Shown: positions 10,935-26,726 of the stretch, piece after piece
Position numbering within the stretch: the first letter of the stretch is position 1
Layout: each line of letters starts with the position of its first letter
Source: a virus
Virus record (IMG/VR): IMGVR_UViG_3300044974_000711
Coordinates: 1 to 26,726 of that record
Strand: one strand, 5' to 3'
DNA length: 26,726 nt
The notes under the pieces: model-generated
The model's database searches: none
Told to the model about the DNA's origin: nothing
The model's input: only the letters and a program-made list of their open reading frames with translations
Program-made: the position numbers and the translations under genes

Positions 10935-10942
10935 TATTTATA
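10935..10942 (-). promoter_or_regulatory. TATAAATA octamer upstream of scaffold/capsid
   Basis: On the minus strand TATAAATA begins 3 nt after the portal stop codon and ends 49 nt before the scaffold ATG. It matches the T4 late promoter core exactly and the other copies in this window. No -35 element is evident. It would give extra transcription of scaffold and capsid. Confidence 0.5.
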
Positions 10943-10945
10943 CCT

Positions 10946-12562: not shown

Positions 12563-12587
12563 TATGCTGTCCTCGTAGTATATTTAC

Positions 12588-14568: not shown

Positions 14569-15482
14569 ACTTGTCTCCTTCTGGTTGTCGCATAAGGTGC
14601 GATGCCTTCAATTAATACACGATCTTCTGGCTTAACGGGTAAAACTCTAAGATCGTATACCTTAATAATTCTGGTCTCACAGGGCAATATGGGCATGGGT
14701 TCACGCCTTGCCACTAATACTCTAGTTTCAGGACCGACTATGAGACTTCTATATGGATCTCTGTAGATGAATACTGCAAAGGTGGCCATAATATCTATGG
14801 CAGGTAACAGTGCTTGTGCACGGAATAACAATCCTGCTGTGCCATTTAGGCCTGATTGGTCAATATGCTGACTGAATGCAGCAGCTAGGCTGGCTGTATT
14901 CTGGCTGATAATGCCAGTAATGCCTATATCAAAGTCTGCCTCTGACAGCATTTGCACCTGAGCTGACTGCAATAAACCACTAAGTGGAATTAGCATGGCT
15001 GCAGCACCGGCCAGGGTTACTGGCTGTTGGAATATATGATTGCCCTGAATCTGGCTGGTGAACACTGAGTCTAATTGGCCGGCACCCCGTAATATATAAT
15101 TGCCTGTGCCGGTTAACTGGGTTACAATATCAAACTGCACTGGTTGTTGGAATATATGATTACCCACAGCCTGAACACTGGCAGCCGCAGGTAGGACTTG
15201 TGGCGCAGGCTGATCCATAACGAGACCAGCACTGACAGTCATTGAGGTCTGCACATGAGCACACCAGCCTTCTGGTCCCCAAATATTGTTGGGCCAATCA
15301 TCCCAAAAAGGTGCTGTGCTGTCCCAGGTATAGGTGCCGCACAGGCCTGAAATTGTGACAACATCTGTGGCGCAGGTCGCAGACAGCGTGGCCTGCACTG
15401 TGATGGGATCGGCTTCAAAGAAGCCTGACTCCGCATAACCGGCCTGTATATAACCTGAGATATCACCAGCAAGTATGGCCAT
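14565..15482 (-). CDS. Repeat-containing fibre-like protein
   Basis: 305 residues. The N-terminus (MAILAGDISGYIQAGYAESG) resembles phage fibre proteins that start with short glycine-rich strands. The middle carries GNHIFQQPV twice, at residues 107-115 and 147-155, with a related GNYILRGAG at 127-135, so a 20-residue period of beta turns. The matching DNA 17-mer repeats exactly at 15025 and 15145. The C-terminus has three ETR/EDR units (PETRVLVARRE, CETRIIKVYD, PEDRVLIEG), a motif often tandemly repeated in phage proteins of this position. The product is probably a structural decoration; no enzyme motif is visible. AAAGG lies 12 nt before the ATG. Confidence 0.65.
   Translation of the reverse strand: MAILAGDISGYIQAGYAESGFFEADPITVQATLSATCATDVVTISGLCGTYTWDSTAPFWDDWPNNIWGPEGWCAHVQTSMTVSAGLVMDQPAPQVLPAAASVQAVGNHIFQQPVQFDIVTQLTGTGNYILRGAGQLDSVFTSQIQGNHIFQQPVTLAGAAAMLIPLSGLLQSAQVQMLSEADFDIGITGIISQNTASLAAAFSQHIDQSGLNGTAGLLFRAQALLPAIDIMATFAVFIYRDPYRSLIVGPETRVLVARREPMPILPCETRIIKVYDLRVLPVKPEDRVLIEGIAPYATTRRRQV
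15025..15161. repeat. Pair of 17-bp direct repeats, 120 bp apart
   Basis: TGTTGGAATATATGATT is present identically at 15025-15041 and 15145-15161, inside the fibre-like gene. The spacing is exactly 40 codons and encodes the two GNHIFQQPV copies, consistent with internal duplication of a repeat unit. Confidence 0.9.
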
Positions 15483-15498
15483 ACTGGATGCAGTGCCT

Positions 15499-15918
15499 TT
15501 AAGCTAATGTCACTGTGAGATTATTGGTGTTAATGGTAAAAGTATCGCCAACAGTGACATTTTTGCTGATGGTTAAATTGCCATAGAACAAAACATTGCC
15601 CTGTGCTGCAGTAGCACCATCCATAACTGCCACAGTGGTCACTATGCCCCAGTCCGCAGTAGCAGTGGGAAAGGTAATGGCTGCACTGTTAGTGATACTG
15701 CCACCGGTGGCTGCATTGCCGAATGTGATGGCCTGGCGTGCATAGGCACTACCTGAGGTGCTGACTTCGTTGGCACTGCCAATGGTGTTATTTTCTAAAT
15801 TGGCAATAGTGGTAAACAGTGCTAGATAGGTGGTGCTGGGTGCAGTATAAGCTGCTGTGCTATATCTTAACACATGATCTAATAATTTATTTTCTAGGTA
15901 GTCACTGGCTGCTGACAT
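15499..15918 (-). CDS. Phage tail fibre-like virion protein
   Basis: 139 residues of a family common in tailed phages. The signature is an N-terminal YLENKLLDHVLRYSTAAYTAP, then TYLALFTT, a GSAYARQAITF segment, ATADWGIVTTVAVMD and a final strand NVTVGDTFTINTNNLTVTL. Such proteins are often annotated as fibre or minor structural proteins. A good AAGGAG lies 8 nt before the ATG, and a CATAAATA element 46 nt upstream, in one of the few real gaps of the operon. Confidence 0.75.
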   Translation of the reverse strand: MSAASDYLENKLLDHVLRYSTAAYTAPSTTYLALFTTIANLENNTIGSANEVSTSGSAYARQAITFGNAATGGSITNSAAITFPTATADWGIVTTVAVMDGATAAQGNVLFYGNLTISKNVTVGDTFTINTNNLTVTLA

Positions 15919-15964
15919 TGGGTGCTTCTCCTTGTAGTAGGTAGGGACCTATTCTGTATCCCTG

Positions 15965-15972
15965 TATTTATG
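15965..15972 (-). promoter_or_regulatory. CATAAATA, late-promoter-like variant
   Basis: One-base variant of the TATAAATA octamer, in the 62-bp gap before the fibre gene starting at 15918 and 46 nt from its ATG. Listed because of its position and orientation; alone it would be weak evidence. Confidence 0.3.
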
Positions 15973-15980
15973 GCTGCCCT

Positions 15981-16940
15981 TCATGCTGTGGGCGGGTATA
16001 CAAATGAATCGGGCAATCTCTGATCGGTGGGTGTCCATCTGGTGCTAATTTTAAGTCCTAAACTTTCATATACTGGCGCACTGGTATCGCTATCTGCCAG
16101 TGGATCAACTATACTGGCAGGAATACTGAAACCACCAGACCAATCATAACGGTGTGTGGTCACTGACAGTGATCCACCGGAATCCGTAATGGTGGTGGTG
16201 CCCTGAGTTCGAGTGGGACGAGCTCTTAGTGGTTCTGTCCATATTCGGTCTATGTCGCGTCCGGGCTGATTGTGTTGGTTATAGGCAGTCCAACGAGCTC
16301 CCGGTTTATTTCGATGTGACATGTCCAGGAAACTGGTGCTGTATCTTATAAGGGCAATTTGGGGATGTTCCCATACACGCTCATATATGCCCGGTGTCTC
16401 TGGTGTGCGCCATTCGTTTCTATGTGGTCTAGTAAAATTGCCAATGCCCTGATTAAGTGCACTGGGACTATAAGTGGTTGGGCTATCCTGTGGATCGTCC
16501 TGGTAGTATTGCCATTTAATATATGGTGAAGTAACCTCGGATTGCTCCAGGGTTAATCTATGATCAGGTAACTGATCATTAACTCGGCAGATGGTATTGG
16601 CTCCCGAATTGCTGTTCTGAAATATAATGCTATACCAGGCATTGGGTTCTATATCAGTCCAGGCCATTTCCTGTATAACCAGGGTTGTAGCAGTTTGACT
16701 ATAGGCAATGTTTAAGTTGTGCCATCTAAATGCCTGATATATGGCTCTTTCTGTAACCTCAAAGCTGCCAATATAAATCCAAAAGCTCAGTGTATTTGCC
16801 CCCCAATTCTGCAGGCTGTTTTCTGTGGGCACTGTGGCAGTGCTGCCGCCTAAATTAATAGGCCATTGTATAGTATAACCCACAGGCTGTGTGTCAATGG
16901 GTAAATCGCTCTGACTGACATGGCGATGAATACCGGTCAT
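15981..16940 (-). CDS. Lectin-like (LamG-type?) receptor or fibre protein
   Basis: 319 residues. The first half could be a concanavalin-like jelly roll: NTLSFWIYIGSFEVTERAIYQ, then TTLVIQEMAWTDIEPNAWYSIIFQNS and CRVNDQLPDHR resemble the LamG pattern of a tryptophan-ended strand, then a 'W-y-s-i' strand and an 'n-g' turn. The second half (residues 160-319) is rich in R, W, P and T, without a recognised fold. It lies among fibre genes and starts in an ATGA overlap, so it is probably a virion adhesin. The domain call rests on pattern only. Confidence 0.55.
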   Translation of the reverse strand: MTGIHRHVSQSDLPIDTQPVGYTIQWPINLGGSTATVPTENSLQNWGANTLSFWIYIGSFEVTERAIYQAFRWHNLNIAYSQTATTLVIQEMAWTDIEPNAWYSIIFQNSNSGANTICRVNDQLPDHRLTLEQSEVTSPYIKWQYYQDDPQDSPTTYSPSALNQGIGNFTRPHRNEWRTPETPGIYERVWEHPQIALIRYSTSFLDMSHRNKPGARWTAYNQHNQPGRDIDRIWTEPLRARPTRTQGTTTITDSGGSLSVTTHRYDWSGGFSIPASIVDPLADSDTSAPVYESLGLKISTRWTPTDQRLPDSFVYPPTA

Positions 16941-17470
16941 TCAAAACCTCTAACAACGGTGACTAGGTATGTGCTGGTGCCCACAGTACTGATATGCACC
17001 ATGTCGGTCACATTAGCATCTGTGCTTAAAAATCTGTCATTATTGCTGGCACGCACTGTATTGGGCCAAGTAGCCACAGCTGGTGGATTGCCATGTTCAA
17101 ACAAAACTGTCACTGTGCCCGATGTGGGAAAGTTACTAAAACTGATTGCCAAGTTACCAGAAACCTGACATCTTTGCACATTGCCATCGTTGTAATTTAT
17201 GGTTATAGTATTGGCCTGTGTGCCTAAATTAGCTGTTCGTTCTGTAAATCTATGCAGTTCTAAAAATCCGTTTTGCCATTGACTGGCTGTGCTGTTGTAT
17301 TGCAATATGTGTGCATTAGCTGCACTGGTAATGGCCACATTGCTGAATTCTGAGACCACAGCATTAATATTCTCTATGGCTTCTTTGATCTGTATACGAG
17401 CCAGTGCAGGATTATCTAATCCCGAATCTACATTTGCTGTGGTAATTGGTGTGGTATTTGGCCAAGTCAT
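16937..17470 (-). CDS. Fibre protein with WPNT N-terminal module
   Basis: 177 residues. The first about 45 (MTWPNTTPITTANVDSGLDN, then PALARIQIKEAIENINAVV) are shared with two other genes of this window (25361-25786 and 25809-26291) and may anchor all three to the same virion site. The C-terminal about 105 residues (VQRCQVSGNLAISFSNFPTS to TYLVTVVRGFE) match the fibre tip of the gene at 18915-19850 in overall pattern, including the last strand before a final 'G[FY]'. It overlaps both neighbours by 4 bp. Confidence 0.7.
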   Translation of the reverse strand: MTWPNTTPITTANVDSGLDNPALARIQIKEAIENINAVVSEFSNVAITSAANAHILQYNSTASQWQNGFLELHRFTERTANLGTQANTITINYNDGNVQRCQVSGNLAISFSNFPTSGTVTVLFEHGNPPAVATWPNTVRASNNDRFLSTDANVTDMVHISTVGTSTYLVTVVRGFE

Positions 17471-17859
17471 AGTTCCATGTCCTCAGGACTCCAGGGATTA
17501 TTACTGGTAGTCCATGTTTGAGTTGCTTCGTTCCAGTGTGGGAATTGGCCTGGCTGCAATTCAGGTAGAGGCAGAGGTCGACGCCAGGTTAGTGTGGGTA
17601 GATCCAGGATCCAGGTGGTATCTGCATCGGGGCGGGGGCCTATAAATGCATCTAGATCAGGCCTATAGATCATGCCGGGTCCAGCAAAATTGCCACGGTA
17701 TGGGGTGCCACCTGCCACATGCACATTGCTGCGTGTATTATAGCTGGTCTGTAACCACTGTTCAGGTGGGCCAAATAGGCCTGTATCAATTTGGGATTGT
17801 TCGGCTACAATAACTTCGGTTACTGTGTTAGTGCTGTCTATTCGTGCGAAATGTGCCAT
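17467..17859 (-). CDS. MAHFA-type conserved phage structural protein
   Basis: 130 residues beginning MAHFARIDSTNTVTEVIVAEQ, followed by WLQTSYNTRSNVH, RGNFAGPGMIYRPDLDAFIG and a closing HWNEATQTW. This is a widely shared small protein of aquatic phages (cyanophages and others), usually next to fibre genes. The function is unknown, though virion association is likely. SD AAGGG lies 9 nt upstream of ATG. Confidence 0.8.
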   Translation of the reverse strand: MAHFARIDSTNTVTEVIVAEQSQIDTGLFGPPEQWLQTSYNTRSNVHVAGGTPYRGNFAGPGMIYRPDLDAFIGPRPDADTTWILDLPTLTWRRPLPLPELQPGQFPHWNEATQTWTTSNNPWSPEDMEL

Positions 17860-17870
17860 TGGTCTTGCCC

Positions 17871-18911
17871 TTAAGCTTCATATGCAATAATTAATATGCC
17901 ACTGCCGCCATTATTACTATTGGTAGTGGCACCTGTATTTGTCATTTTTGCAGTGCCACCGCCACCACCACCAGTATTAACACCGCCACCGCCGGTCTGA
18001 TTACTGTTGGTTCTAACGCTGGTGTTACCACCGCCACTGCCGCCAATGCCAGGCTCATAAACGGCATAGACATTTGAAGTGCCGCCAGGTCTAAATCCAC
18101 CGCCACCGCCACCTGCGTAAAAGGTCGCGTTACCGGAAATATTGCTGCTGAATCCAGGTCCACCATTGCCGCCGTATAGGCCAGTGGCATTACCGGTAGT
18201 GGTATTACCGGTAAAATACCAGGCTTCTCCTGCACCACCACCTCCACCGCCACCGCCACATACAAATGTATAATCTCTAGTTCTTATTTGCGCGGCAGTC
18301 CAGGCTGGAGTGCTCACAATTGTTATCAGGCTAGCGGTAATGTTACCGCTGAGTTGCGCCCGACCATTGCCACCTCCATAGCCCTGACCCATGCCAGTTA
18401 CAGAATATTGCGTGCTGTCAGCTCCAGTAGTTGCACCAGGATAATTTGTTGAACCATTGGCATTCCAGACCGCGCTGGCTCCGCCACCACTGCCGCCACT
18501 ATGCGCTCTACTACCCCCACCATTGGTGGTATTGCTACTAGGTGCACCTACTTCAGCGCCGCCGGCGCCTCCGCCCAGTGCTACTACTAGATTGCTGCCA
18601 CCTACATGCATATAAGTGGCTGCACCATTGGCATTGGTGGGCCAGCTGGTGCTGACACCGCTGCCACCTGCACCCACCACCACAGTATAAGTTGTGCCTG
18701 CGGTAACTGAGAAAGTCTGATCAACCACGCCACCTCCACCGCCACCTCCACCTTCCCAGCCTGCGCCGCCAGCACCACCTCCACCTACGGCCAGTATACG
18801 AGCTGATGTAACACCGGCGGGTGCCACCCAGCTGCCTGAACTGGTAAAAGTAGTAATGGTAGTGCTGGCGGCCTGCGTAAATCCAAATGCTGCTCTAGCT
18901 GCTCCAAACAT
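17871..18911 (-). CDS. Glycine-rich fibre/adhesin
   Basis: 346 residues, extremely glycine rich with runs of 5-8 glycines. It starts with a strand TITTFTSSGSWVAPAGVTSA, typical of the phage glycine-rich tail fibre domain, and contains ARILAVGGGGAGGAGWEGG, then TYTVVVGAGGSG, and ends in GGSGILIIAYEA. Glycine-rich repeats of this kind can form polyglycine-II bundles that support variable receptor loops at the tip of phage adhesins. The variable turns are likely the host-range determinant. The simple GGC/GGT codon repeats in DNA make this gene prone to slippage and recombination. Confidence 0.82.
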   Translation of the reverse strand: MFGAARAAFGFTQAASTTITTFTSSGSWVAPAGVTSARILAVGGGGAGGAGWEGGGGGGGGVVDQTFSVTAGTTYTVVVGAGGSGVSTSWPTNANGAATYMHVGGSNLVVALGGGAGGAEVGAPSSNTTNGGGSRAHSGGSGGGASAVWNANGSTNYPGATTGADSTQYSVTGMGQGYGGGNGRAQLSGNITASLITIVSTPAWTAAQIRTRDYTFVCGGGGGGGGAGEAWYFTGNTTTGNATGLYGGNGGPGFSSNISGNATFYAGGGGGGFRPGGTSNVYAVYEPGIGGSGGGNTSVRTNSNQTGGGGVNTGGGGGGTAKMTNTGATTNSNNGGSGILIIAYEA

Positions 18912-18914
18912 AGT

Positions 18915-19850
18915 TTATAGGTATCCTTTGGTTAATGCAGCATAATAAGTGGTGCCTATATAAGCTACACTCATTATGTCCACCGCATTGGCTGTGGTTG
19001 TTAGTGTGCGGCTGTTACCAGCAAATCGCATATTGCTGGTTAAAAGTCTGCTGCCAGTGGGGTCTTGTGTTAATATAAACACACCACTCTGTCCACTGGT
19101 GGGATTTAGGAACTGACTGAAAGTTAGGTTGCCTGTTAGTGTCAGGGTCTGTATGGTGCCATTGGCTAAATTTGGTGTAAATGTGCCGGATACATTACCC
19201 AGTGCAACCACAGTTTCCTGATATCGGGTAAATGCTGTATTAGCTGTGGTCAATGTGTTGGTTACTGTAACTGAATTAGCAGTTAGGGGGCCGGTGACGA
19301 CAGCACTAACTTCATCCGGGTGTAGAATATTAGCAGCGAATACGGTCCCAGTGGCTGAAACATTAACGGCCGTAACTGTATCCGCCTCAAAAGTAGCGCC
19401 CGCATTACCTATATATCTAGCTTCAATGGAATCTGCATCTATGCTGGTATTGACCACCAAACTGCCCGTAGTAGTATCCCCAAGACTCACAGTGCCAGGA
19501 GTTTGTAGACTACCTGTTACCAGAATGTTGGTTATACTAGCACTGCTGGCTGTGATATTACCGGTGACATCTAAATTAGCGGATATGGTAGTGACACCCG
19601 TAACATCTAAACTAACTAATGTGCCTACTTGAGTGATACCACCCTGACTGCCGTCCTGTATACCACCATATATCTCTGTGCCCACATTGCCTATAGTTCT
19701 AACATTAATCGTGTCTGCTGTAATATTGCCCGTATAGGTGGTTAAGTTGGCAGCTTCTAATTTGTTGGTGTTCAAATTAGTTAGGTTGTTGTCCATTTCG
19801 GTAAAGGTCAGTGCACTGCCTTTGCCTGCTCTAGTTGTAATTGCGGTCAT
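18915..19850 (-). CDS. Tail fibre protein, beta-helical
   Basis: 311 residues. The N-terminus MTAITTRAGKGSALTFTEMD (then NNLTNLNTNK) is the KGSxLTxxEMDxNxTNLN module found at the start of many phage fibres. The middle consists of imperfect repeats of VT/IT strand-turn units (ITADTINVRTIGNVGTEIYG; IDADSIEARYIGNAGATFEA), consistent with a beta-helix or triple spiral. The last about 100 residues form a fibre tip (GTIQTLTLTGNLTFSQFL to AYIGTTYYAALTKGYL) related to the C-terminus of the 16937-17470 product. It follows the putative glycosyltransferase by 40 bp and precedes the glycine-rich adhesin by 3 bp. Confidence 0.82.
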   Translation of the reverse strand: MTAITTRAGKGSALTFTEMDNNLTNLNTNKLEAANLTTYTGNITADTINVRTIGNVGTEIYGGIQDGSQGGITQVGTLVSLDVTGVTTISANLDVTGNITASSASITNILVTGSLQTPGTVSLGDTTTGSLVVNTSIDADSIEARYIGNAGATFEADTVTAVNVSATGTVFAANILHPDEVSAVVTGPLTANSVTVTNTLTTANTAFTRYQETVVALGNVSGTFTPNLANGTIQTLTLTGNLTFSQFLNPTSGQSGVFILTQDPTGSRLLTSNMRFAGNSRTLTTTANAVDIMSVAYIGTTYYAALTKGYL

Positions 19851-19890
19851 TGTGCTTGGTGTCCTTGGTATGCCCGTGGTATCTGTATAT

Positions 19891-20409
19891 TTAGCGATCC
19901 AATTTCAGCCACTGGGCCAGCTCAGCTGGTGTATGCATGTAAATTAAGTATACACCCCAGCGATCTCGTGCTGCCTGTGCCTGTGTGCGCCATCTATTAC
20001 GAATATGATGGCCAGCTGCAGCCTGGGTCAGTTTATTATGTGGTTGCACCACCTGATCGCCTATATCGTGATTAATACCATCAAAGCCCAGGGCAGCAGC
20101 TACTTGTATTCCCCAACCACGCAATAAACAGCACATTACATCATAACCTGTGCCCCGTTCACAGTTTACTCTATTATAGGGCCTGTCTGCCTTCAGATCT
20201 CGGGCCATGTAAACTGTTTCGGGCAGTATGTCAGGGGGTAATAGATCCACATAGGCCTGACTGCCTATACATACAGCATCAGTCTGACCTGGTCCCTGAT
20301 ATCTGTTCAGTCTAACTGTGATTATGCTGCTGGGCAACTGGTATTGGTCTAATAAATTCACACTGGGACCATTGCCCAAGACTAGGATTCTACTGGCTTT
20401 TTGTGTCAT
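19891..20409 (-). CDS. Putative glycosyltransferase (sialyltransferase/MptE-like fold)
   Basis: 172 residues. Near the N-terminus ILVLGNGPSVNLLDQYQLP matches the nucleotide-binding GNGPS motif of GT42/GT29 sialyltransferases and MptE/DUF115-like enzymes. VRLNRY (residues 32-37) fits the following 'R.N.[FY]' element. GTGYDVMCCLLRGWG (86-100) and VAAALGFDG (103-111) match the later 'tSG..~~~~a...G...i.l.G.D' elements. The catalytic histidine of this fold cannot be assigned; H134/H135 are candidates. It lies in a fibre cluster, so it could modify virion or host surface sugars. It has no Shine-Dalgarno, but a TATAAATA octamer 9 nt upstream. Confidence 0.65.
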   Translation of the reverse strand: MTQKASRILVLGNGPSVNLLDQYQLPSSIITVRLNRYQGPGQTDAVCIGSQAYVDLLPPDILPETVYMARDLKADRPYNRVNCERGTGYDVMCCLLRGWGIQVAAALGFDGINHDIGDQVVQPHNKLTQAAAGHHIRNRWRTQAQAARDRWGVYLIYMHTPAELAQWLKLDR

Positions 20410-20746
20410 ATGCGTTTTTATTTATAGGTTCAGTCTGTGTGCTTAATTCCTGCACCAGTTCAATTATGGTTTGCAGATCTAAAGGTGCATATAATCGTTG
20501 TGGTCTATGATCTGCATCCAGTATATCCTGAGCTGCAGTTGCAGTTTTAGCCAATTGGAGATCTGCATATATGCCTAATTGTCGTAATTGTATAATGTCA
20601 CGCCATAGACGGTAATTGCCATATCCAGTATCCACATACATTCTATAACTGGTCAAATCCGGTATGCTGACCCAATTGAGTCTATATACTATACCCTGTG
20701 TGCGACCACTGGGCCTACGGCCAATTTCATATAATATTGCTTCCAT
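20390..20746 (-). CDS. Unknown protein upstream of the glycosyltransferase
   Basis: 118 residues, not recognised with confidence. It starts MEAILYEIGRRPSGRTQGIV and contains PDLTSYRMYVDTGYGNYRLW, an aromatic segment, then helical sequence (DIIQLRQLGIYADLQLAK). A run of six guanines lies about 8 nt before the ATG and may serve as ribosome site. It overlaps the next gene by 20 bp and its 3' end carries that gene's TATAAATA element. A structural or regulatory role cannot be decided. Confidence 0.6.
   Translation of the reverse strand: MEAILYEIGRRPSGRTQGIVYRLNWVSIPDLTSYRMYVDTGYGNYRLWRDIIQLRQLGIYADLQLAKTATAAQDILDADHRPQRLYAPLDLQTIIELVQELSTQTEPINKNAYDTKSQ
20419..20426 (-). promoter_or_regulatory. 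TATAAATA octamer 9 nt before the glycosyltransferase start
   Basis: Minus-strand TATAAATA inside the last codons of the upstream gene, ending 9 nt before the ATG at 20409. With transcription starting a few bases downstream, the message would have almost no leader, which fits the absence of a Shine-Dalgarno. Confidence 0.45.
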
Positions 20747-20781
20747 CTGTTAACCCCCCACTAAATTTGTGCTAACAAATA

Positions 20782-20789
20782 TATTTATG
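20782..20789 (-). promoter_or_regulatory. CATAAATA variant and small hairpin before the 20746 gene
   Basis: CATAAATA lies 35 nt before the ATG in a 73-bp gap. A 6-bp hairpin (ATTTGT, loop TAGC on this strand, ACAAAT; 20765-20780) follows, then the G6 ribosome site. Same orientation as the gene; weaker match than the exact octamers. Confidence 0.3.
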
Positions 20790-20819
20790 GGTTGTTGTAT
20801 AAAATGGGTATCTAGGGTA

Positions 20820-21134
20820 TCAAAATGGGCATTTTCGGCTATTACGGATTATCTGGGTCAGGGCGCGTCGATATCGTTGTTGTCTCAGTATGCTGCCGCT
20901 GGGTCTGGGCAAGCCCAATAGTTGTCTCAGCCAGGCCTGTTGTCTGCGATGGGCTATTCTATGTGTTATTTGTTGTATGCGATCTGGTGGGGCGTGTAGT
21001 ATACGGGGTGCTGTGGCTGGGTCCTGTAAAACTAGTCGATACCAGTAGTGTATATCTAATTGTGCTGGATCTAAAGCCAGTGCTAGTTGTAGATAGGCCC
21101 GCATTTGTGCAGTTAGGCGAATTCGTTGACGCAT
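20820..21134 (-). CDS. Small arginine-rich unknown protein
   Basis: 104 residues, very rich in R, Q and L (about one residue in six is arginine). Predicted helices include LTAQMRAYLQLALALDPAQL and RIAHRRQQAWLRQLLGL. No known motif; a nucleic-acid-binding or small virion protein would be plausible from charge alone. There is no clear Shine-Dalgarno before the ATG at 21134, and it is preceded by a 193-bp structured gap. A competing plus-strand frame exists over the same DNA, so this call is tentative though it fits the direction of the operon. Confidence 0.45.
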   Translation of the reverse strand: MRQRIRLTAQMRAYLQLALALDPAQLDIHYWYRLVLQDPATAPRILHAPPDRIQQITHRIAHRRQQAWLRQLLGLPRPSGSILRQQRYRRALTQIIRNSRKCPF

Positions 21135-21209
21135 ATTATTTGGCCAGTTTCAGCGTGGGATACTGGCCCAATCCCCCCGGAGCTGAGCTAGTGCAGCTCA
21201 CGCTGTGGG

Positions 21210-21217
21210 TATTTATA
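21210..21217 (-). promoter_or_regulatory. TATAAATA octamer in the structured gap
   Basis: Exact copy of the octamer, just downstream of the 11-bp hairpin and 75 nt before the ATG at 21134. If active, it starts a transcript whose leader holds the CAGCGTG, TGAGCT and GGCCAGT elements. Confidence 0.45.
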
Positions 21218-21237
21218 CTAGAGGCGGCCAAAGAAGT

Positions 21238-21265
21238 GGGCCAGAACATGCTCTTGTTCTGGCCC
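21238..21265 (-). terminator. 11-bp perfect hairpin, possible terminator
   Basis: GGGCCAGAACA and TGTTCTGGCCC pair perfectly around a 6-nt loop. It lies after the stop of the CxxC gene and before a promoter-like octamer. On the minus strand the bases after the stem are ACTTCTTT, only partly T rich, so termination may be weak; on the plus strand G runs follow instead. It may instead be part of a larger RNA fold. Confidence 0.5.
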
Positions 21266-21327
21266 TGGGGGGGTTTAGGATATATAAGTTCAAAAAATGT
21301 CAAAAATTTCGAAACAAGCATCGCTGC

Positions 21328-21594
21328 TCATCTGTATTTAGCCATGCTGGGATGTTTATAGTAGATATCTGTCATCTCAGCTATTCTTTGTTCAGTTTGC
21401 CGTTGGCGATTATAAGCTTCTACTTCTCGCCATTCTGCTTTATCCAAGTATGCAATATGACATTGGCATTTTTGGCAGATTACTTGGCCATATACACCTT
21501 GTTCACCATCAAACTGTCTATATTGTTTAGGATGAGCTCGATGCCTATGTATAACACGGTTTTCCTGGCGTCGTTGCTGTCTATTCTGTTGCAT
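21328..21594 (-). CDS. Small CxxC protein, unknown
   Basis: 88 residues from the ATG at 21594, which sits 4 bp past the lipoprotein stop. A longer reading to 21795 would overlap the lipoprotein gene by nearly 200 bp and is rejected. The N-terminus is basic (QQNRQQRRQENRVIHRHRA). The middle has VYGQVICQKCQCHIAYLD, with C-x2-C-x-C-H that could bind zinc. A charged helix follows (EWREVEAYNRQRQTEQRIAE). The start lacks a Shine-Dalgarno and probably relies on coupling. DNA or RNA binding is possible but not shown. Confidence 0.6.
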   Translation of the reverse strand: MQQNRQQRRQENRVIHRHRAHPKQYRQFDGEQGVYGQVICQKCQCHIAYLDKAEWREVEAYNRQRQTEQRIAEMTDIYYKHPSMAKYR

Positions 21595-21598
21595 AGTG

Positions 21599-21901
21599 TT
21601 ATTTATTACGGCCAGTGCTGATAATATGGGTTGTGTTGCCCAGGGTATTAATTCTATAGCCGCCCTGTGGTATAAGCACATAGGTGCTGTTAAATTGGCC
21701 TGTGCCTGGTGTGCCTGTGGGTCGCCAACTTTCAGGAGGCACCGGGCAATTGCGATCAGTTCGTAGGTGTTTAGGGATAATTTGCCAGTTAGCATCCTGA
21801 CAGCCCATCATTTGATTAGCACGAATGGCCTGCGGGATAGTGGGCATGCCGCCACAACCTGTTAAGCTTAGGAGTGCAATTGCAATCACAGTGGTTTTCA
21901 T
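21599..21901 (-). CDS. Phage lipoprotein, unknown role
   Basis: 100 residues with a clear lipoprotein signal: MKTTVIAIALLSLTGCGG, a lysine, a hydrophobic core, and lipobox L13-T14-G15-C16. After cleavage C16 would be acylated and the protein anchored in the cell envelope. The mature part is short and proline/threonine rich (CPVPPESWRPTGTPGTGQF), with two further cysteines. Such lipoproteins in phages can block superinfection or act as outer-membrane spanins, but no Rz-like partner is adjacent. It starts in an ATGA overlap with the upstream gene, so it is expressed from the strong promoter at 22.3 kb. Confidence 0.75.
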   Translation of the reverse strand: MKTTVIAIALLSLTGCGGMPTIPQAIRANQMMGCQDANWQIIPKHLRTDRNCPVPPESWRPTGTPGTGQFNSTYVLIPQGGYRINTLGNTTHIISTGRNK

Positions 21902-22266
21902 TGTGCGTGTCCTGTATATTTGTGGTGTAAAAATGCCAGTTGTTGTTTAAAATTATCCATATACTGCTGATCTAACCAAAAGAATGAATAATAAACACTA
22001 TAATGGACAGGTGCTGCACCGCACAATAAAGCATAGGTCAGCATCTGCTCAAAATCCTCCACGGGTAAGACCACGCCCGTTTGATCGGGTTGCCAACTGG
22101 GTAAATGTTCGTAGTAATTGCCTTGGTAGATTGTAATTTGGTAGTGCACCTTCATGTCCAGTCCCAAACCCGAAGTAAAACCCAAATTGATCAAGGGTCT
22201 ATCTATAAATTTTGTGTCGGTGCTACCAATTGGCGGTAGGTTTATGTGCGCCGCTGTCTTTACCAT
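21898..22266 (-). CDS. Unknown protein, possibly leaderless first gene of an operon
   Basis: 122 residues, no recognised family. It holds FIDRPLINLGFTSGLGLDMK, strands (VHYQITIYQGNYYEHLPSW), and an aromatic C-terminal part (VHYSVYYSFFWLDQQYMDNF). There is no Shine-Dalgarno; instead a TATAAT hexamer ends 6 nt before the ATG, so the transcript would begin at or next to the A of ATG. An internal ATG at residue 38 is the only other start and has no clear ribosome site. It heads the unit with the lipoprotein and the CxxC gene. Confidence 0.65.
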   Translation of the reverse strand: MVKTAAHINLPPIGSTDTKFIDRPLINLGFTSGLGLDMKVHYQITIYQGNYYEHLPSWQPDQTGVVLPVEDFEQMLTYALLCGAAPVHYSVYYSFFWLDQQYMDNFKQQLAFLHHKYTGHAQ

Positions 22267-22272
22267 GCAGAT

Positions 22273-22301
22273 ATTATAACGCCTTCCCCATTATTTGTCA
22301 A
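22273..22301 (-). promoter_or_regulatory. Consensus sigma70 promoter (TTGACA-17-TATAAT)
   Basis: Minus strand: -35 TTGACA (22301-22296), exactly 17 bp, -10 TATAAT (22278-22273). Both hexamers match the bacterial consensus at all six positions. The -10 lies 6 nt from the ATG at 22266. Expected use is by host RNA polymerase soon after infection or in the prophage. Confidence 0.85.
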
Positions 22302-22309
22302 TATTCAGT

Positions 22310-22323
22310 TATTTATATAAATA
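22310..22323. promoter_or_regulatory. 14-bp palindrome giving divergent TATAAATA elements
   Basis: TATTTATATAAATA is a perfect palindrome. Read to the right it gives TATAAATA at 22316-22323, 33 nt before the plus-strand ATG at 22357. Read to the left it gives TATAAATA at 22317-22310, 43 nt before the minus-strand ATG at 22266. It lies between the only divergent genes of the window. An operator (repressor site) is the alternative reading. Confidence 0.55.
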
Positions 22324-22356
22324 TCCATAAGTAATTTAACGCCACAAGGTGCCGAG

Positions 22357-22566
22357 ATGAACATATATCGATTTTTGCGTGAGTTGCATATTGAGTGTCC
22401 AGTTGAGGTAGTGCATTCAATGACAGGTCCACATCAGGCCTTATTAAGATGTCGCAGTCACTGTTGTGTATTGGGTCCCATTGGCAACCAGACTGCCAGT
22501 CGTATAGTGGATCGTCTGGATCAGAAACCCAATTTGCGTGTCAGTGATTTAACATTTGCCAGTTGA
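22357..22566 (+). CDS. Possible small plus-strand protein
   Basis: 69 residues, the only plausible gene on this strand. It fills the space between the divergent promoter region and the convergent DUF3820-like gene, whose 3' end it overlaps by 18 bp. AAGGTG lies about 8 nt before the ATG. The sequence (MNIYRFLRELHIECPVEVVH, then ALLRCRSHCCVLGPIGNQ) includes four cysteines and looks like a small regulator rather than a structural protein, but no family is recognised. No minus-strand gene occupies this DNA, which supports reality. Confidence 0.45.
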   Translation: MNIYRFLRELHIECPVEVVHSMTGPHQALLRCRSHCCVLGPIGNQTASRIVDRLDQKPNLRVSDLTFAS

Positions 22567-22830
22567 CCGCTGAGGTCTAAGTTCAGATCTGAATTCAGGT
22601 CTACGCTGTAATTCGTCGGCCAACCATTGTGCCATGCCCTGATCCTGGTAATTAAGCACACACCACTTCAAGTAATCGGTGGGCACATCTTTTAGGTAAT
22701 AGCCCTTATATTTTCCCCAGGGCATTTTTGCCAGTCTATCCTGAGGGCCTGACCAGCTCCGGGGTAGAAGGCTTTCTCTAGGCATTTCCTCTATTTGCAA
22801 CACTTTTTTTGGGGGTTTTCGGGGCTTCAT
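22549..22830 (-). CDS. DUF3820 / ExoX C-terminal-like protein
   Basis: 93 residues from the ATG at 22830, one base after the TAA of the upstream gene; the longer reading uses TTG at 22839. The core MPWGKYKGYYLKDVPTDYLK, then WCVLNYQD, matches the small 'pfGkykGk.l.dvP.~YL.Wl' domain known from DUF3820 and the C-terminus of exodeoxyribonuclease X. The domain probably binds nucleic acid. The basic N-terminus (KPRKPPKKVLQ) fits this. It likely serves DNA metabolism rather than the virion. Confidence 0.8.
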   Translation of the reverse strand: MKPRKPPKKVLQIEEMPRESLLPRSWSGPQDRLAKMPWGKYKGYYLKDVPTDYLKWCVLNYQDQGMAQWLADELQRRPEFRSELRPQRSTGKC

Positions 22831-22831
22831 G

Positions 22832-23650
22832 TTAGGCAATCCCCCGTGGCGCAGTATTTCTGTGCAGTGATTGCGGTGACCTTCGTGTTAACTGTCCCCA
22901 GTAACCTGAACTGTGATAAAAAGCTTGTTGTCGAAAACTTACTTCTTGGTCCATGTCTATGGTATATCTTTCTTCGTCTAGATGAAGCACAACGGCCACA
23001 ATCCTGTTGTCCCGCATTAGTCCAGCCACAAGGGTATTGGATTTCCATTGCGAACGAGCACCCCTATCGTGCACTCTGCCCAAATACCATTCACCTTCAA
23101 GTTGTCGGTAATGATCTATTAAATGTGGGGTGGCCTGTTGAAAAAACGAGTCATCATGTTCATTGCGCCGCATTTCGCGAGTTCTACTAGGATGTTTTAA
23201 TTCAGCAGTTAATTCAAAGATTTCACCCGTCTGGACCAATTCTGAATTTTGTAAATTTATTGCTAACTTACAACCCCTTCGGGTTCGTGAATGTTGCACA
23301 CTGATCCAGTTATACGCGCGAGAACTAGTTTCCGCGGCCATTGTTCTACCCGAACCCCACTGGCCATCTTCTTTTCCCAACTGCTCTGCTACCTGATCCC
23401 TCTGCTCAGACCACTGAGCTCCTAAGCCCTCTGGGCTGGGAGACGAAGTCTCCTTCCCATCAGGAGCTGAAAGCAAATTCGGTCTCGAACTTTCATCGCT
23501 ATAGCGCGAAATATCTTTTTGTCTTTTAGTCTTTTTGTCTTTAGATAGATCTCGCGGTCTGTGTAAATTTAAACCCTGATCGCGATTACTTGTTCCCGCA
23601 TCTGTATCCGTAAAATAAACCGCTGCCGCGGCATTATCACCTGTTGCCAT
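22832..23650 (-). CDS. Unknown hydrophilic protein with hairpin-rich coding DNA
   Basis: 272 residues from the ATG at 23650, chosen because GGGAGG lies about 9 nt upstream; an ATG at 23665 overlaps that site. The first 110 residues are charged and low complexity (DLSKDKKTKRQKDISRYSDE; PSPEGLGAQWSEQRDQVAEQ) and likely disordered. The rest looks folded (GCKLAINLQNSELVQTGEIF; LVAGLMRDNRIVAVVLHLDE) but matches no family I know. Base use and palindrome density differ from neighbours, suggesting acquisition. It is preceded by a strong promoter, and its stop is one base before the DUF3820 ATG. Confidence 0.65.
   Translation of the reverse strand: MATGDNAAAAVYFTDTDAGTSNRDQGLNLHRPRDLSKDKKTKRQKDISRYSDESSRPNLLSAPDGKETSSPSPEGLGAQWSEQRDQVAEQLGKEDGQWGSGRTMAAETSSRAYNWISVQHSRTRRGCKLAINLQNSELVQTGEIFELTAELKHPSRTREMRRNEHDDSFFQQATPHLIDHYRQLEGEWYLGRVHDRGARSQWKSNTLVAGLMRDNRIVAVVLHLDEERYTIDMDQEVSFRQQAFYHSSGYWGQLTRRSPQSLHRNTAPRGIA
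23404..23468 (-). repeat. Cluster of four nested/adjacent hairpins inside the 272-aa gene
   Basis: Perfect stems are AGCTCCT/AGGAGCT (23417-23423 with 23462-23468), which encloses AGCCC/GGGCT (23425-23437) and GGAGAC/GTCTCC (23439-23453). Together they give a three-way junction. Beside it, GCTCAG/CTGAGC (23404-23419) forms a 4-nt-loop hairpin that competes with the outer stem. This resembles a small palindromic element inserted in an ORF. Confidence 0.6.
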
Positions 23651-23672
23651 TATATATCCTCCCATATAAGTT

Positions 23673-23680
23673 TATTTATA
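23673..23680 (-). promoter_or_regulatory. TATAAATA octamer before the 23650 gene
   Basis: Exact octamer, 22 nt upstream of the ATG, just downstream of the -10 (TATAAA) of the sigma70 promoter, so two potential start signals for the same gene lie in tandem. Confidence 0.45.
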
Positions 23681-23682
23681 CA

Positions 23683-23711
23683 TTTATACAAAAAACCGTA
23701 TTTTTTGTCAA
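23683..23711 (-). promoter_or_regulatory. Sigma70 promoter (TTGACA-17-TATAAA)
   Basis: Minus strand: TTGACA at 23711-23706, 17 bp, TATAAA at 23688-23683. It lies about 32 nt before the ATG at 23650 and is followed by GGGAGG. Sequence upstream of the -35 (CAGAATATT) resembles the one at the 22.3 kb promoter (CTGAATATT). Confidence 0.78.
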
Positions 23712-23887
23712 ATATTCTGAATACATCCCTGTTAGATATAATTCTACATATACAGGACATACCAACATATATGTGCACGGAATATCAGGCCAGATCACGC
23801 CAATTCAGTGCAGATATAGACTGCTATAGGCTCGATTATGGGGTATTTCAGGCCTGCTAGGCCAGTTATTTCGCTAGCAGTATATAA
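23712..23887 (-). other. Non-coding gap with a 7-bp hairpin
   Basis: 176 bp between the 2OG oxygenase stop and the promoter at 23.7 kb, with no convincing gene. CTGCTAG and CTAGCAG (23854-23860 and 23874-23880) pair perfectly around a 13-nt loop just past the oxygenase stop; there is no T-run, so a terminator is doubtful. An overlapping GGCCT/AGGCC stem adds a competing fold. The remainder is unremarkable. Confidence 0.45.
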
Positions 23888-24487
23888 CTAGGGCATGTTG
23901 AGGTAAGTTAAACTATCCGGATCGCCCACTGGGCCACGACACCAGGTATTAAATGCCAGGCTAGCTCTAACACCAGCTCTAGGCTGTGCTGGCACCTGAT
24001 GTCGTAAATTGCTGCTGAATATCAAGATGTCACCAGTTCGAACCGCTGTATGCCAAATATTGCTATTAAGCACAGTATATCGTTTTGCGCTGAATTCTAT
24101 AGGCCAGGGATTAGCTCGTTCAAATACTATCCAGTCCGGATCAGCACAGGCCAAGTATACCACACCACTTAATATGCTGTTAGGATGGCAGTGTGGGGGG
24201 TGTGGCTCATGGTCTGTTAATTGGCTTATCCAGCTCTGTGTGATATAGAATTCAGTCTGTGGGCTATGAATTATATGCCGGTTATAGTCCTGAACTGCTT
24301 GTAGACATGCAGTGCGTAGTTCATGGTAATGGGGCAGATCTAATACAGTTCGGTTTAGGCTAAATTGGCCTCTAGCAGGTTCCGTCTGCCAATCGGGCCA
24401 GGTTCCAGTATATTGGGTTCTCCAGATGACCTGGGGAAATACACATTCCACAGTCATAGGTGAATCGCCAGTTGCTCCGGGTAACAT
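23888..24487 (-). CDS. 2OG-Fe(II) oxygenase-like protein
   Basis: 199 residues resembling TIGR02466 (putative 2OG-Fe(II) oxygenase), common in aquatic phages. Key points: the strand HCHPNSILSGVVYLA with H99 and H101, a later H163 (SSNLRHQVPAQ), and R174 in RASLAFN, where the 2-oxoglutarate carboxylate would bind. The iron ligands are likely H101 (or H99) and H163; the exact triad is not certain. The substrate is unknown: protein, nucleic acid or small molecule. No Shine-Dalgarno is seen; TATATT ends 5 nt before the ATG. An alternative start is ATG at residue 11. Confidence 0.8.
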   Translation of the reverse strand: MLPGATGDSPMTVECVFPQVIWRTQYTGTWPDWQTEPARGQFSLNRTVLDLPHYHELRTACLQAVQDYNRHIIHSPQTEFYITQSWISQLTDHEPHPPHCHPNSILSGVVYLACADPDWIVFERANPWPIEFSAKRYTVLNSNIWHTAVRTGDILIFSSNLRHQVPAQPRAGVRASLAFNTWCRGPVGDPDSLTYLNMP

Positions 24488-24560
24488 GGCGTAATATAAC
24501 AGATTGGTGATTTAAGTGGAATTGCACGAACATTGCATTCGTGCTGCTGGCGATTCATCT
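24458..24560 (-). repeat. Inverted repeat around the oxygenase start
   Basis: AGATGAATCGCCAG (minus strand, 24560-24547) can pair with CTGGCGATTCACCT (24471-24458), 14 bp with one mismatch. The loop contains a second perfect 7-bp hairpin (GCACGAA/TTCGTGC, 24524-24544) and the start codon at 24487. Read-through RNA from upstream would fold here. Confidence 0.6.
24493..24498 (-). promoter_or_regulatory. TATATT -10-like element at the oxygenase start
   Basis: Minus-strand TATATT, five of six consensus bases, ends 5 nt before the ATG. The best -35 at 17 bp (TTCCAC) is poor, so the call is tentative. Together with the lack of a ribosome site it suggests a leaderless start. Confidence 0.35.
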
Positions 24561-24561
24561 G

Positions 24562-24569
24562 TATTTATT
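24562..24569 (-). promoter_or_regulatory. AATAAATA, late-promoter-like variant
   Basis: One-base variant of TATAAATA, 74 nt before the oxygenase ATG and just after the HNH gene stop. A transcript from here would include the small GCACGAA hairpin and the 3' arm of the inverted repeat. Confidence 0.3.
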
Positions 24570-24578
24570 CCTACACTT

Positions 24579-25136
24579 TTAGGGTTCTTGGTCCAGCCAC
24601 TGATAGGCACGACCTTCGCGTATAGCTTTAGTGATGCCTCTAATATCCTGTGCTGGAATATCTGGCCAACGAGCCTGGACCGCCGTGATGGGCCAGTCTC
24701 TAAATGCTCGCATCTGTTCCACTGTATATTTGTAAGCTCTGCGGCGCTGTCTGACCTGAGTTATACCTAATTTAGCCCATTCCTGGCGCTGATGTTCTCT
24801 AGCTCTTTGTGCCATTTCACTGGTGCTACCAGCCCCTAAATGATCTGGACGACAACAACGAGGGTTATTGCATAAGTGTATAATATCCTGATTGGGTCGT
24901 AAACGACCGGGATTGGCGATCTGATACATTAATCTATGTGCTGTATACATGCGGTGACTGCGATTTGTTCGATCAAATACATGCACCATACCATAACCCT
25001 GGCGGTGTAACCCACCTCTAACCACATACCAACAGCCTGACGCCTGTTCTTCGATTCGGCCCTGTAAACGAGCTAGGTTGAAATATAACCCATCCACTGT
25101 GTCTGGATAACGGCTACGAAATAATTCTGGTCGCAT
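24579..25136 (-). CDS. HNH endonuclease
   Basis: 185 residues with a clear HNH core: SGCWYVVRGGLHRQGYG (C35 first), AHRLMY (H67), IIHLCNNPRCCRPDHLG (H87, C89, C94, C95, H99). H87 and the H-N-H histidines bind metal at the active site, and cysteines may hold zinc. The C-terminal 35 residues (YTVEQMRAFRDWPITAVQAR, then GITKAIREG) look like a helical DNA-binding module. Free-standing HNH genes of this kind in phages usually act as homing endonucleases; a packaging role is less likely here, 10 kb from terL. AGGA lies about 9 nt before the ATG. Confidence 0.9.
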   Translation of the reverse strand: MRPELFRSRYPDTVDGLYFNLARLQGRIEEQASGCWYVVRGGLHRQGYGMVHVFDRTNRSHRMYTAHRLMYQIANPGRLRPNQDIIHLCNNPRCCRPDHLGAGSTSEMAQRAREHQRQEWAKLGITQVRQRRRAYKYTVEQMRAFRDWPITAVQARWPDIPAQDIRGITKAIREGRAYQWLDQEP

Positions 25137-25158
25137 ACTTAAACATCCTATAATTGTG

Positions 25159-25166
25159 TATTTATT
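25159..25166 (-). promoter_or_regulatory. AATAAATA variant upstream of the HNH gene
   Basis: One-base variant of the octamer, 22 nt before the HNH ATG and overlapping the stop of the preceding gene. The orientation fits the gene. Confidence 0.3.
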
Positions 25167-25434
25167 AACGAATTTGGATGTAATAAAAAGGAATATCTGC
25201 CACGGTCAGGGTATTGCAGAATCTACTGGCATGCATTGGGTTAGTGAAGTTATAGACCGAGCAGTAATCGGTGTAGAAATCTGGTGCACGCAGTTCTGGC
25301 GGCCTGTATTGTTTTGGGATGCGAACCTGGTAATTACCCAGTCGGCCTAGATGGGGTCGTTTAGCTGCTGCTGATATTGGCACCGATGCTAATTCGTCGC
25401 CAATTTGATCCTGTATACACTGCCAGACAGACAT
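25165..25434 (-). CDS. Unknown small protein overlapping a fibre gene
   Basis: 89 residues from the ATG at 25434, which has GGAG 9 nt upstream. A start at 25467 is possible but has GGAG touching the ATG. It overlaps the end of the upstream fibre-like gene by 74 bp in another frame. The product (MSVWQCIQDQIGDELASVPI, then RIPKQYRPPELRAPDFYTDY and RFCNTLTVADIPFYYIQIR) reads like a soluble folded protein, but no family is recognised. Confidence 0.6.
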   Translation of the reverse strand: MSVWQCIQDQIGDELASVPISAAAKRPHLGRLGNYQVRIPKQYRPPELRAPDFYTDYCSVYNFTNPMHASRFCNTLTVADIPFYYIQIR

Positions 25435-25786
25435 TACCTGAATCTCCATTGCTGCAATAGCTGACATCTCCGGATGTAGCTGTTAGAGCTTGTAATTGAA
25501 CTACAGTTTGAGGTGCAAGATTAACAATATTTTGAATATTTACTCGTTGTGTAGCACTATTCAAAGTAATGGCAGTATTGCTGGTGCTGGTAATATTGGG
25601 GTTGATCTGTCCGGTGGGTATTCGACCTGTGCTATCCAGGCTGGGGATGCCGCTGACTGCAGCACGACTGTTAATAATGGTGTTAACTGCAACCACGGCC
25701 GCTAATAGATCGGGCCTAGCACTGGCGGGTGAATCTGAGGTGCTGTCTAAATTAGTTGTGTTTACTGTGGTATTGGGCCATGACAT
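25361..25786 (-). CDS. Fibre-like protein with WPNT module and C-terminal SNW tip
   Basis: 141 residues. The first about 45 (MSWPNTTVNTTNLDSTSDSP, then ASARPDLLAAVVAVNTIIN) are the N-terminal module shared with two other genes of the window. The C-terminus (GDVSYCSNGDSGNVCLAVYT, then GSNWRRISIG) is a common short fibre tip in phages, with two cysteines. It follows its sibling (25809-26291) by 22 bp. SD: GAGGAA, about 8-10 nt upstream. Likely a short decoration or fibre protein. Confidence 0.7.
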   Translation of the reverse strand: MSWPNTTVNTTNLDSTSDSPASARPDLLAAVVAVNTIINSRAAVSGIPSLDSTGRIPTGQINPNITSTSNTAITLNSATQRVNIQNIVNLAPQTVVQLQALTATSGDVSYCSNGDSGNVCLAVYTGSNWRRISIGANISSS

Positions 25787-25808
25787 CGTGATAATTCCTC
25801 GGGTTTAT

Positions 25809-26291
25809 TTAAATATAGCCTAGATCCAAATCTGCCAGATATTCGGTGGTGCCAGTGCGCTGAACGGTTAACCTATCCACACTGGGTGCAGTGCCTGACA
25901 GTGTGGTTAGACCACCACGGAATAGATACTGGCTGTTTGCTGAGATCTGTGCACCTTCCTGAAAATAGCCCGCAGTGACATAACCAGAGGCCACATAAAG
26001 TGAGGCCGTGGTGGTGGCCTGGCGTATAACCAGTTCCATGCTGTGGCCCAGGGGCAAATTGGTGGGTGCATTTAATGTGAGACCTGTGTTAGCCTGAATA
26101 CTGTGAACTGGTCCTAACGCATAATTGGGCGTGTAAGTGGTTACATTACTCTGGGTATAAACACCAGTACTGGCCTGTATGATTTCATTTAGGGCCACAA
26201 TGGCTGCATAGATATTCTGTCTACTGCTACTGATACTGCCTGCAGCTGAGTCTAAATTAGCAGTGCTAATGTTAGCAGTGGGCCAGGTCAT
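25809..26291 (-). CDS. Fibre-like protein with WPNT-type module
   Basis: 160 residues. The N-terminus (MTWPTANISTANLDSAAGSI, then SSRQNIYAAIVALNEIIQ) belongs to the shared module, and the C-terminus (VDRLTVQRTGTTEYLADLDL, then GYI) matches the last strand of the tips in the 16937 and 18915 genes. The middle is beta rich. The start overlaps the XhlA-like gene by 4 bp, linking fibre and lysis-type genes in one message. Confidence 0.7.
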   Translation of the reverse strand: MTWPTANISTANLDSAAGSISSSRQNIYAAIVALNEIIQASTGVYTQSNVTTYTPNYALGPVHSIQANTGLTLNAPTNLPLGHSMELVIRQATTTASLYVASGYVTAGYFQEGAQISANSQYLFRGGLTTLSGTAPSVDRLTVQRTGTTEYLADLDLGYI

Positions 26292-26551
26292 AATACATAC
26301 CTTGCAATTAGTGCACCTGAAACTGCAGTTAATACACCCACTAGAGCCAGGCTACCGGTAAGATAAGTTCGCAGTGTATTCTGACGATCACGCTGTATGA
26401 TATCACCAATGGTTTTTAGGTCACGAGCCATGTCAGTTAATCTCTGTTCAACTGCACATAGTCTAGTATACAATTGCTGGTATCTTTGTTCACAGGCATC
26501 TACATGCAGTGCAAGATCGGTGCTTTCTTGTGGCAAACTTATCTGTGTCAT
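26288..26551 (-). CDS. XhlA-like coiled-coil membrane protein (possible holin component)
   Basis: 87 residues: a helical coiled-coil N-terminal part (LHVDACEQRYQQLYTRLCAV, then EQRLTDMARDLKTIGDI) and one C-terminal membrane segment (TGSLALVGVLTAVSGALIA). This is the layout of XhlA/hemolysin-type proteins, often accessory to phage holins. The membrane segment is single and there is no partner endolysin in the window, so a lysis role is inferred. It has no Shine-Dalgarno of its own; its ATG follows a 14-codon minigene by 2 bp. Confidence 0.7.
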   Translation of the reverse strand: MTQISLPQESTDLALHVDACEQRYQQLYTRLCAVEQRLTDMARDLKTIGDIIQRDRQNTLRTYLTGSLALVGVLTAVSGALIARYVL

Positions 26552-26553
26552 TG

Positions 26554-26598
26554 TTATCGCTTATAGGGTGGGCGTGGTGTTTTATTTCTTTTTTTCAT
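26554..26598 (-). CDS. 14-codon minigene, candidate leader peptide
   Basis: ATG at 26598 encodes MKKRNKTPRPPYKR, then TAA. AAGGAA lies 5-6 nt upstream. It overlaps the end of the previous gene (stop 26582) in another frame and ends 2 bp before the XhlA-like ATG, which itself lacks a ribosome site. The very basic peptide could be real, or the frame may serve only to deliver ribosomes to the next gene. Confidence 0.45.
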   Translation of the reverse strand: MKKRNKTPRPPYKR

Positions 26599-26726
26599 AT
26601 CGTTTCCTTAAAGATTTAGGTGCTGCTTGTCTAGCAATACTGTAAGCTATGGCCACTGCTTGTGCAGCTGGTCGGCCTGCACGAATTTCAGTTCTAATAT
26701 TACTGGCAATAGTTTGTTTTCCGTAA
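26582..26726 (-). CDS. Small conserved phage protein (5' end outside window)
   Basis: Only the last 47 codons are inside the window; the frame is open to the edge. The sequence (YGKQTIASNIRTEIRAGRP, then AAQAVAIAYSIARQAAPK) belongs to a widespread family of short basic phage proteins with the core 'K.I..Ni~~E~~aGkp..QAvAIA~s~Ar', found near structural genes. No function is established. The basic tail is RKRYEKKK. Its last codons hold the ribosome site and start of the minigene. Confidence 0.75.
   Translation of the reverse strand, partial: YGKQTIASNIRTEIRAGRPAAQAVAIAYSIARQAAPKSLRKRYEKKK

Follow-up and report, generated by a model that had tools for sequence, protein, structure and literature searches.

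Genome organisation of the window

The window, by which we mean the whole 26,726-nt stretch of viral DNA analysed here (GC = 46%), encodes head, packaging and tail genes, the last of which are of siphovirus type. On the minus strand we recognised the terminase large subunit (12588..13832), the portal protein (phrog_145; 10946..12562), the head scaffolding protein (10214..10885), the major capsid protein (9366..10202), the tape measure protein (4434..7052) and a block of tail tip genes encoding a distal tail protein, a tail protein, an acetyltransferase and the central fibre J (678..4423). Adjoining the large subunit, also on the minus strand, is the gene for a helix-turn-helix-like protein (13832..14233), a putative terminase small subunit whose weak HTH matches fall below the Pfam cut-offs; its orthologue in phage DSL-LC06 is annotated as a DNA-packaging protein. 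Among the small accessory genes are orphans and those for an HNH endonuclease and a 2OG-Fe(II) oxygenase. Rfam and tRNA searches returned no matches. Directly downstream of the capsid gene, a long G+C-rich hairpin on the minus strand (9318-9365, ggggggcttcgaagcccccc) has the appearance of a terminator.

Two contigs, L065/L062 (99.7-100% identity) and L004 (about 95%), bridge positions 1 and 26726 of the window over the same 41 nt, and the window (1..26726) is therefore essentially a whole genome. This genome measures about 26,767 bp and its map is circular; the window lacks 41 nt of it, between end and start. These contigs, by closing the circle, rule out that the window is a piece of a larger phage. 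No direct repeats of at least 15 nt were found at the contig ends; permuted ends could give circular maps.

Octamers and sigma70 promoters upstream of genes

The octamer TATAAATA occurs exactly six times in the window, five times on the minus strand and once on the plus strand, precisely where an earlier note on this DNA had located it by eye. Three of the minus-strand copies lie 49 nt upstream of the scaffold gene 10214-10885 (10935..10942; kept in the 95% identical contig G009), 9 nt upstream of gene 19891-20409 (20419..20426, overlapping the 3' end of gene 20390-20746) and 75 nt upstream of gene 20820-21134 (21210..21217). A fourth (22310..22317) is found 43 nt upstream of gene 21898-22266, and a fifth (23673..23680), which closely follows a sigma70-like promoter, 7 nt upstream of the orphan gene 22832-23665. 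The plus-strand copy (22316..22323) precedes ORF 22357-22566 by 33 nt. Together with the fourth copy it forms a perfect 14-bp palindrome, TATTTATATAAATA (22310..22323), composed of two overlapping divergent NATAAATA elements, and ORF 22357-22566 is the one small plus-strand ORF that opposes the minus-strand genes there, in agreement with the earlier description of an overlapping pair between the only divergent genes of the window. All six copies point towards a start codon, as had been claimed, over a range of 7-75 nt instead of the 9-75 nt originally given.

Variants of the octamer precede further minus-strand genes. AATAAATA lies 22 nt upstream of the HNH endonuclease gene 24579-25136 (25159..25166, minus strand; kept in G001 and G009) and 74 nt upstream of the 2OG-Fe(II) oxygenase gene 23888-24487 (24562..24569, minus strand), whilst CATAAATA lies 35 nt upstream of gene 20390-20746 (20782..20789, minus strand) and 46 nt upstream of the virion gene 15499-15918 (phrog_240; 15965..15972, minus strand), whose orthologues in G002, G003, G005 and DSL-LC06 likewise have ATAAATA 45-68 nt upstream. 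These four, at distances of 22-74 nt, match the earlier count of at least four more genes with such variants; a fifth AATAAATA/CATAAATA variant (21600) falls inside genes. In addition, GCTAAATA, the late promoter form of the Aeh1 type, is present 37 nt upstream of the tail gene 18915-19850 (19888..19895, minus strand).

Dinucleotide shuffling of the window gave an expectation of 1.86 TATAAATA in total, in place of the roughly 0.4 per strand that the earlier note had calculated under equal base frequencies, and 2/100 shuffles reached at least the six copies observed. As the count by itself is thus modest (about p = 0.02), the weight of the argument rests on position, strand and conservation across relatives.

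Both sigma70 promoters of the window, each on the minus strand, adjoin a TATAAATA. A canonical TTGACA-N17-TATAAT (22273..22301) lies upstream of gene 21898-22266 and is a putative early promoter; a sigma70-like TTGACA-N17-TATAAA (23683..23711) lies upstream of gene 22832-23665. Comparable pairs of early and late promoters were observed in the relatives G002, G003 and G012. A few genes have a separate canonical TTGACA-N17-TATAAT, several of these promoters adjoining an octamer, and TTGACA is as a rule absent about 17 nt upstream of the octamers themselves, the true sigma70 promoters being separate boxes. Behind the double promoter, the orphan gene 22832-23665 encodes a protein of 277 aa with a low-complexity N-terminus, possibly a fast-evolving early or hijack protein. 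Similarly built proteins occur in G012, G017 and G019, without recognisable kinship to it.

Relatives of the window and genome-wide placement of the motif

A search of IMG/VR with aligned capsid proteins returned 303 relatives, 80 of which were fetched; the longest contig among these is 30.5 kb. In four of them (G002, 27.6 kb; G015, 28.8 kb; G018, 30.5 kb; G019, 30.4 kb) both ends break within one gene, which indicates circular maps here too, and a further family member, DSL-LC06 (OR003941, L027; 29.8 kb), was deposited as circular. The genes common to the whole family are those for virion and packaging, whilst accessory genes vary by member, with methyltransferases, glycosyltransferases or nucleases present in some relatives. 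The glycosyltransferase of DSL-LC06 had no match elsewhere, and tail proteins gave no usable signal on the identity of host or helper. Two scans of about 85,000 genomes for integrated copies retrieved only one relative, on a free 28-kb MAG contig. In G019 (L237, L238), a 149-aa protein encoded between the portal and scaffold genes (9396-9845, in coding-strand orientation) resembles Dps/ferritin by eye.

We then counted the shared core ATAAATA by position and strand, with gene calls from a simple purpose-written ORF caller whose individual boundaries are approximate. Across ten genomes, 40 copies were intergenic and in sense orientation (expected 10.5) and 3 intergenic and antisense; within genes there were 17 sense copies and a single antisense one (expected 29). 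In this set ATAAATA is the most over-represented intergenic heptamer, apart from Shine-Dalgarno words, and the most antisense-depleted of 5440 heptamers in genes. None of 20 other A5T2 heptamers displayed such a pattern of placement and avoidance in the ten genomes, and the sigma70 box TATAAT showed no antisense depletion there. The pattern recurred in a replication set of 56 independent loci (520 kb) outside the first count, with 80 intergenic-sense copies (expected 18.2) and 4 intergenic-antisense ones. The earlier note had envisaged an equal motif frequency inside genes as the finding that would speak against promoters; instead, the coding regions of these loci hold 9 sense copies (expected 36) and 1 antisense copy (expected 53.8).

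Correspondence to T4-type late promoters

Alignment of 49 sites revealed that the first base is free and that A/T is mildly preferred downstream, with no informative upstream column; a -35 partner for the octamer was ruled out, none being conserved. This form equals the late promoter consensus of cyanophage S-PM2, NATAAATA (PMC2984593); that of the T4-like phage Aeh1 takes the form RCTAAATA (PMC2988020), which also sits upstream of genes in the window's family. In the positive controls T4, S-PM2, KMB17 and DSL-LC02 the motif is likewise placed upstream of genes and avoided in antisense, and Aeh1 shows this pattern for RCTAAATA. Five non-T4 phages lack it (HTVC111P, HTVC112P, Vibrio 1.082.O, Venkman and CRP-4), of which HTVC111P and HTVC112P are, by terminase and capsid, among the nearest named relatives. 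The statistics, the form of the motif and the controls support the assignment of the octamers as putative T4-type late promoters, NATAAATA without a -35 element, and thereby the earlier proposal of a T4 late promoter core in a non-T4 structural module. Judging by the motif, they would be recognised by a sigma factor of the gp55 family.

The likeness to T4 and S-PM2 extends to the NATAAATA core without a -35 element, to its position upstream of virion genes and to its avoidance elsewhere. Overlapping early and late promoters have been described in S-PM2 (PMC2984593), and in S-PM2 and RB49, as here, certain genes combine an early sigma70 promoter with a late one. In contrast to the gp55-gp33-gp45 system of T4 and S-PM2, the genome studied here is unrelated, of siphovirus type and without gp55 or gp45, and its promoters would be read in trans.

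Genes not found in the family and the probable source of the sigma factor

No gp55 (phrog_234) was found in 33 viral family records, the window among them, in which profiles detect nothing at E<=10, whereas gp55 was found in 9/9 T4-like controls; gp45 (phrog_223) was likewise absent from the window and 13 other viral family records. The earlier note had suggested a search for these genes in the rest of the genome. The window turns out to be the whole of that genome, less 41 nt, and neither was found in it. At the sensitivity of PHROGs and Pfam, the window proteins include no replication, integrase, endolysin or transcription-factor families, and the relatives examined likewise yielded no recognisable polymerase, helicase or primase. 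With siphovirus-type virion genes and neither gp55 nor gp45, the window falls outside the T4 superfamily. The lack of recognisable replication genes had not been foreseen in the earlier note. According to the source paper of DSL-LC06, each of the seven genomes it covers has replication proteins (PMC10611076), although the deposited annotation of DSL-LC06 lists none.

The most serious alternative is that of a self-sufficient small lytic phage running on host enzymes, with octamers that act as -10-only promoters for a host sigma factor. TATAAATA does contain TATAAA, which matches the sigma70 -10 box at 5/6 positions, family genomes also have canonical TTGACA-N17-TATAAT promoters, and many small ORFs have no assigned function. 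We nevertheless consider it unlikely: the octamer has a free first base and no conserved -35, ATAAATA is strongly avoided in antisense whereas TATAAT is not, and the pattern is missing from non-T4 phages whose terminase and capsid are related. It would also be unusual for a tailed phage to show no recognisable initiator, helicase or primase across several near-complete genomes.

It is less probable still that the family encodes its own late sigma and replication initiator, diverged beyond recognition, among its orphan ORFs. Each genome has about a dozen short proteins that lack known relatives, among which either function could hide. The orphans have almost no alignment depth, and some lie near dual promoters (21898-22266 and 22832-23665 in the window; cluster G002_4963-5409). 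Against this, the motif is family-wide, yet no non-virion gene is, and the gp55 profiles that recovered every T4-like control came back empty. A conserved orphan early gene was also considered as a candidate sigma or initiator and rejected, as iterative profiles gave no family-wide gene. Since gp55 was not found in the family and its members share no candidate gene, another phage is the most likely source of the sigma.

Links to T4-like phages

Two accessory genes of relatives point towards T4-like phages. The nuclease of G003 matches phage records of T4-like-typical sizes and host genera, one of which, KMB17, belongs to the Straboviridae and has gp55, and the AAA ATPase of G006 (L130; phrog_1250) has 1111 phage-record matches, mostly T4-like by host and size.

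A further lead comes from the marine Porticoccaceae MAG MED754, where the relative C59 (27,961 bp; L231, L232) is co-binned with a T4-like contig of 118.7 kb, C28 (L224-L227, L229, L230), which carries gp17-gp23, gp41, gp43-gp47, gp62, UvsX, UvsW and gp55. C28 has 28 ATAAATA upstream of genes and C59 has seven, all of them intergenic; none of 21 S-PM2 core (T4-type) proteins matched C59. Among 112 Porticoccaceae genomes, gp55 was present in 2 and a family element in 2, with both together in 1, and G086, the only other genome of this host family with a relative, has no gp55. C28 and C59 are thus suggestive of a helper-satellite pair, a single case in which binning can be chance. The GC content and tetranucleotide profile of the window differ from those of C28.

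The joint presence in MED754 of phage contigs of 28 and 119 kb would also fit a two-part virus with its replication and gp55 genes on a second replicon, in obligate mutualism as opposed to parasitism, an arrangement that would account just as well for the shared promoter code and for the lack of replication genes. We regard this as highly improbable, as the 119-kb contig, with terminase, tail and capsid (gp23) genes of its own, does not need the small element.

Divergent octamer pairs in three family members

Divergent octamer pairs are present in three distinct members, namely the window (with its near-identical contigs), DSL-LC06 (4428-/4442+) and the MAG contig C59 (881-/890+), and each adjoins a divergent gene. 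The two octamers are offset by 7 nt in the window, 14 nt in DSL-LC06 and 9 nt in C59. This variation speaks for two promoters placed back to back, of which the palindrome is a side effect, and against a conserved dyad; we interpret the palindrome as overlapping, putative late promoters that would serve the one divergent gene. A perfect dyad amid divergent genes and beside a sigma70 promoter might call to mind a repressor operator at 22310-22323; there is very little to recommend this reading, since the dyad is not kept in DSL-LC06 or C59, yet both divergent octamers are, and a conserved operator palindrome is ruled out by the differing offsets. That the octamers are chance occurrences in AT-rich gaps, as the shuffles of the window alone might still allow, deserves practically no credence in view of the 56-locus set, where 80 copies stand against 18 expected from the gaps' own composition and the antisense orientation is nearly empty.

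Discussion

Our computations establish the motif, where it is placed and avoided, the near-completeness of the genome and, within the reach of profile searches, which genes are missing. Having their own particle genes but no recognisable genes for copying DNA or reading their promoters, the elements of this family are probably parasites of larger T4-like viruses. We therefore hold, with good confidence, that the window represents a tailed satellite virus with a small genome (27-30 kb), to which a T4-like helper provides late transcription and replication, and that its octamers are late promoters read by gp55. For the family as a whole, the 303 IMG/VR matches probably represent a widespread group of bacterial 'virophages' of 27-30.5 kb, with tailed virions that look autonomous, genomes made up almost entirely of virion and packaging genes, and virion genes under the late promoter code of the T4 superfamily, that parasitises late transcription and replication.

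In such a cycle, where the helper's identity, its part in replication and lysis and the early use of sigma70 promoters are our inferences, host sigma70 would first read the few early promoters upon co-infection. The helper would replicate, and its gp55-loaded RNA polymerase would then transcribe the virion operons of the satellite, probably with gp45/gp33. DNA replication, lysis and the late sigma would be supplied to the satellite by the helper, whilst the satellite would build its own virions and package its own DNA with its own terminase.

Bacterial satellite viruses with their own virion were reportedly first described in 2023, from one host genus. The closest precedent is that of the Streptomyces satellites MiniFlayer and MulchRoom, which keep encapsidation genes and lack key replication genes (PMC10690885); own capsid and packaging genes and missing key replication genes are thus shared with the family described here. 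Their helpers, like the one proposed here, are large and virulent, and MiniFlayer is without an integrase (PMC10690885), a gene that we likewise did not find in the window. They are smaller, at 15-17 kb against 27-30 kb here (PMC10690885), whereas the window has a full siphovirus tail and terminase, a circular map and no terminal repeat that we could see. The helper would also be of another class, deduced from the promoter code and not from co-culture, and the window's family comprises hundreds of environmental contigs.

The combination of an own capsid with the late promoter of a large helper is accepted logic for virophages (PMC6723459). Sputnik and mavirus are, like the elements described here, small dsDNA viruses with their own capsid and the late promoter of their helper (PMC6723459); in contrast, the window belongs to a bacterial tailed virus that is structurally unrelated to them and whose dependence is presumptive. 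DSL-LC06 and its cluster VC_342_0 have the same virion genes, motif and divergent octamer pair as the window; the accessible text of their source describes VC_342_0 only as an orphan phage group and leaves the promoter code and the missing replication genes unremarked (PMC10611076). The satellites PICI, P4, PLE and PICMI depend on helpers, as proposed here, but use helper capsids and mostly integrate, whereas the window encodes a virion of its own and gave no sign of an integrase. The hallmarks of PICI, P4 and PLE, namely an integrase, an own replicase and a helper-derived virion, were not observed in the window.

In marine and fresh waters, T4-like phages rank with the most abundant viruses. 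If our reading is true, a large environmental family of satellites is tied to them, and late promoter codes would offer a general computational means of matching satellites to helpers, as for virophages. The window's family would allow a direct test of the extent to which gp55/gp45-coupled late transcription acts in trans on foreign DNA. It also suggests that some phage genomes held as 'complete' in databases are not self-sufficient.
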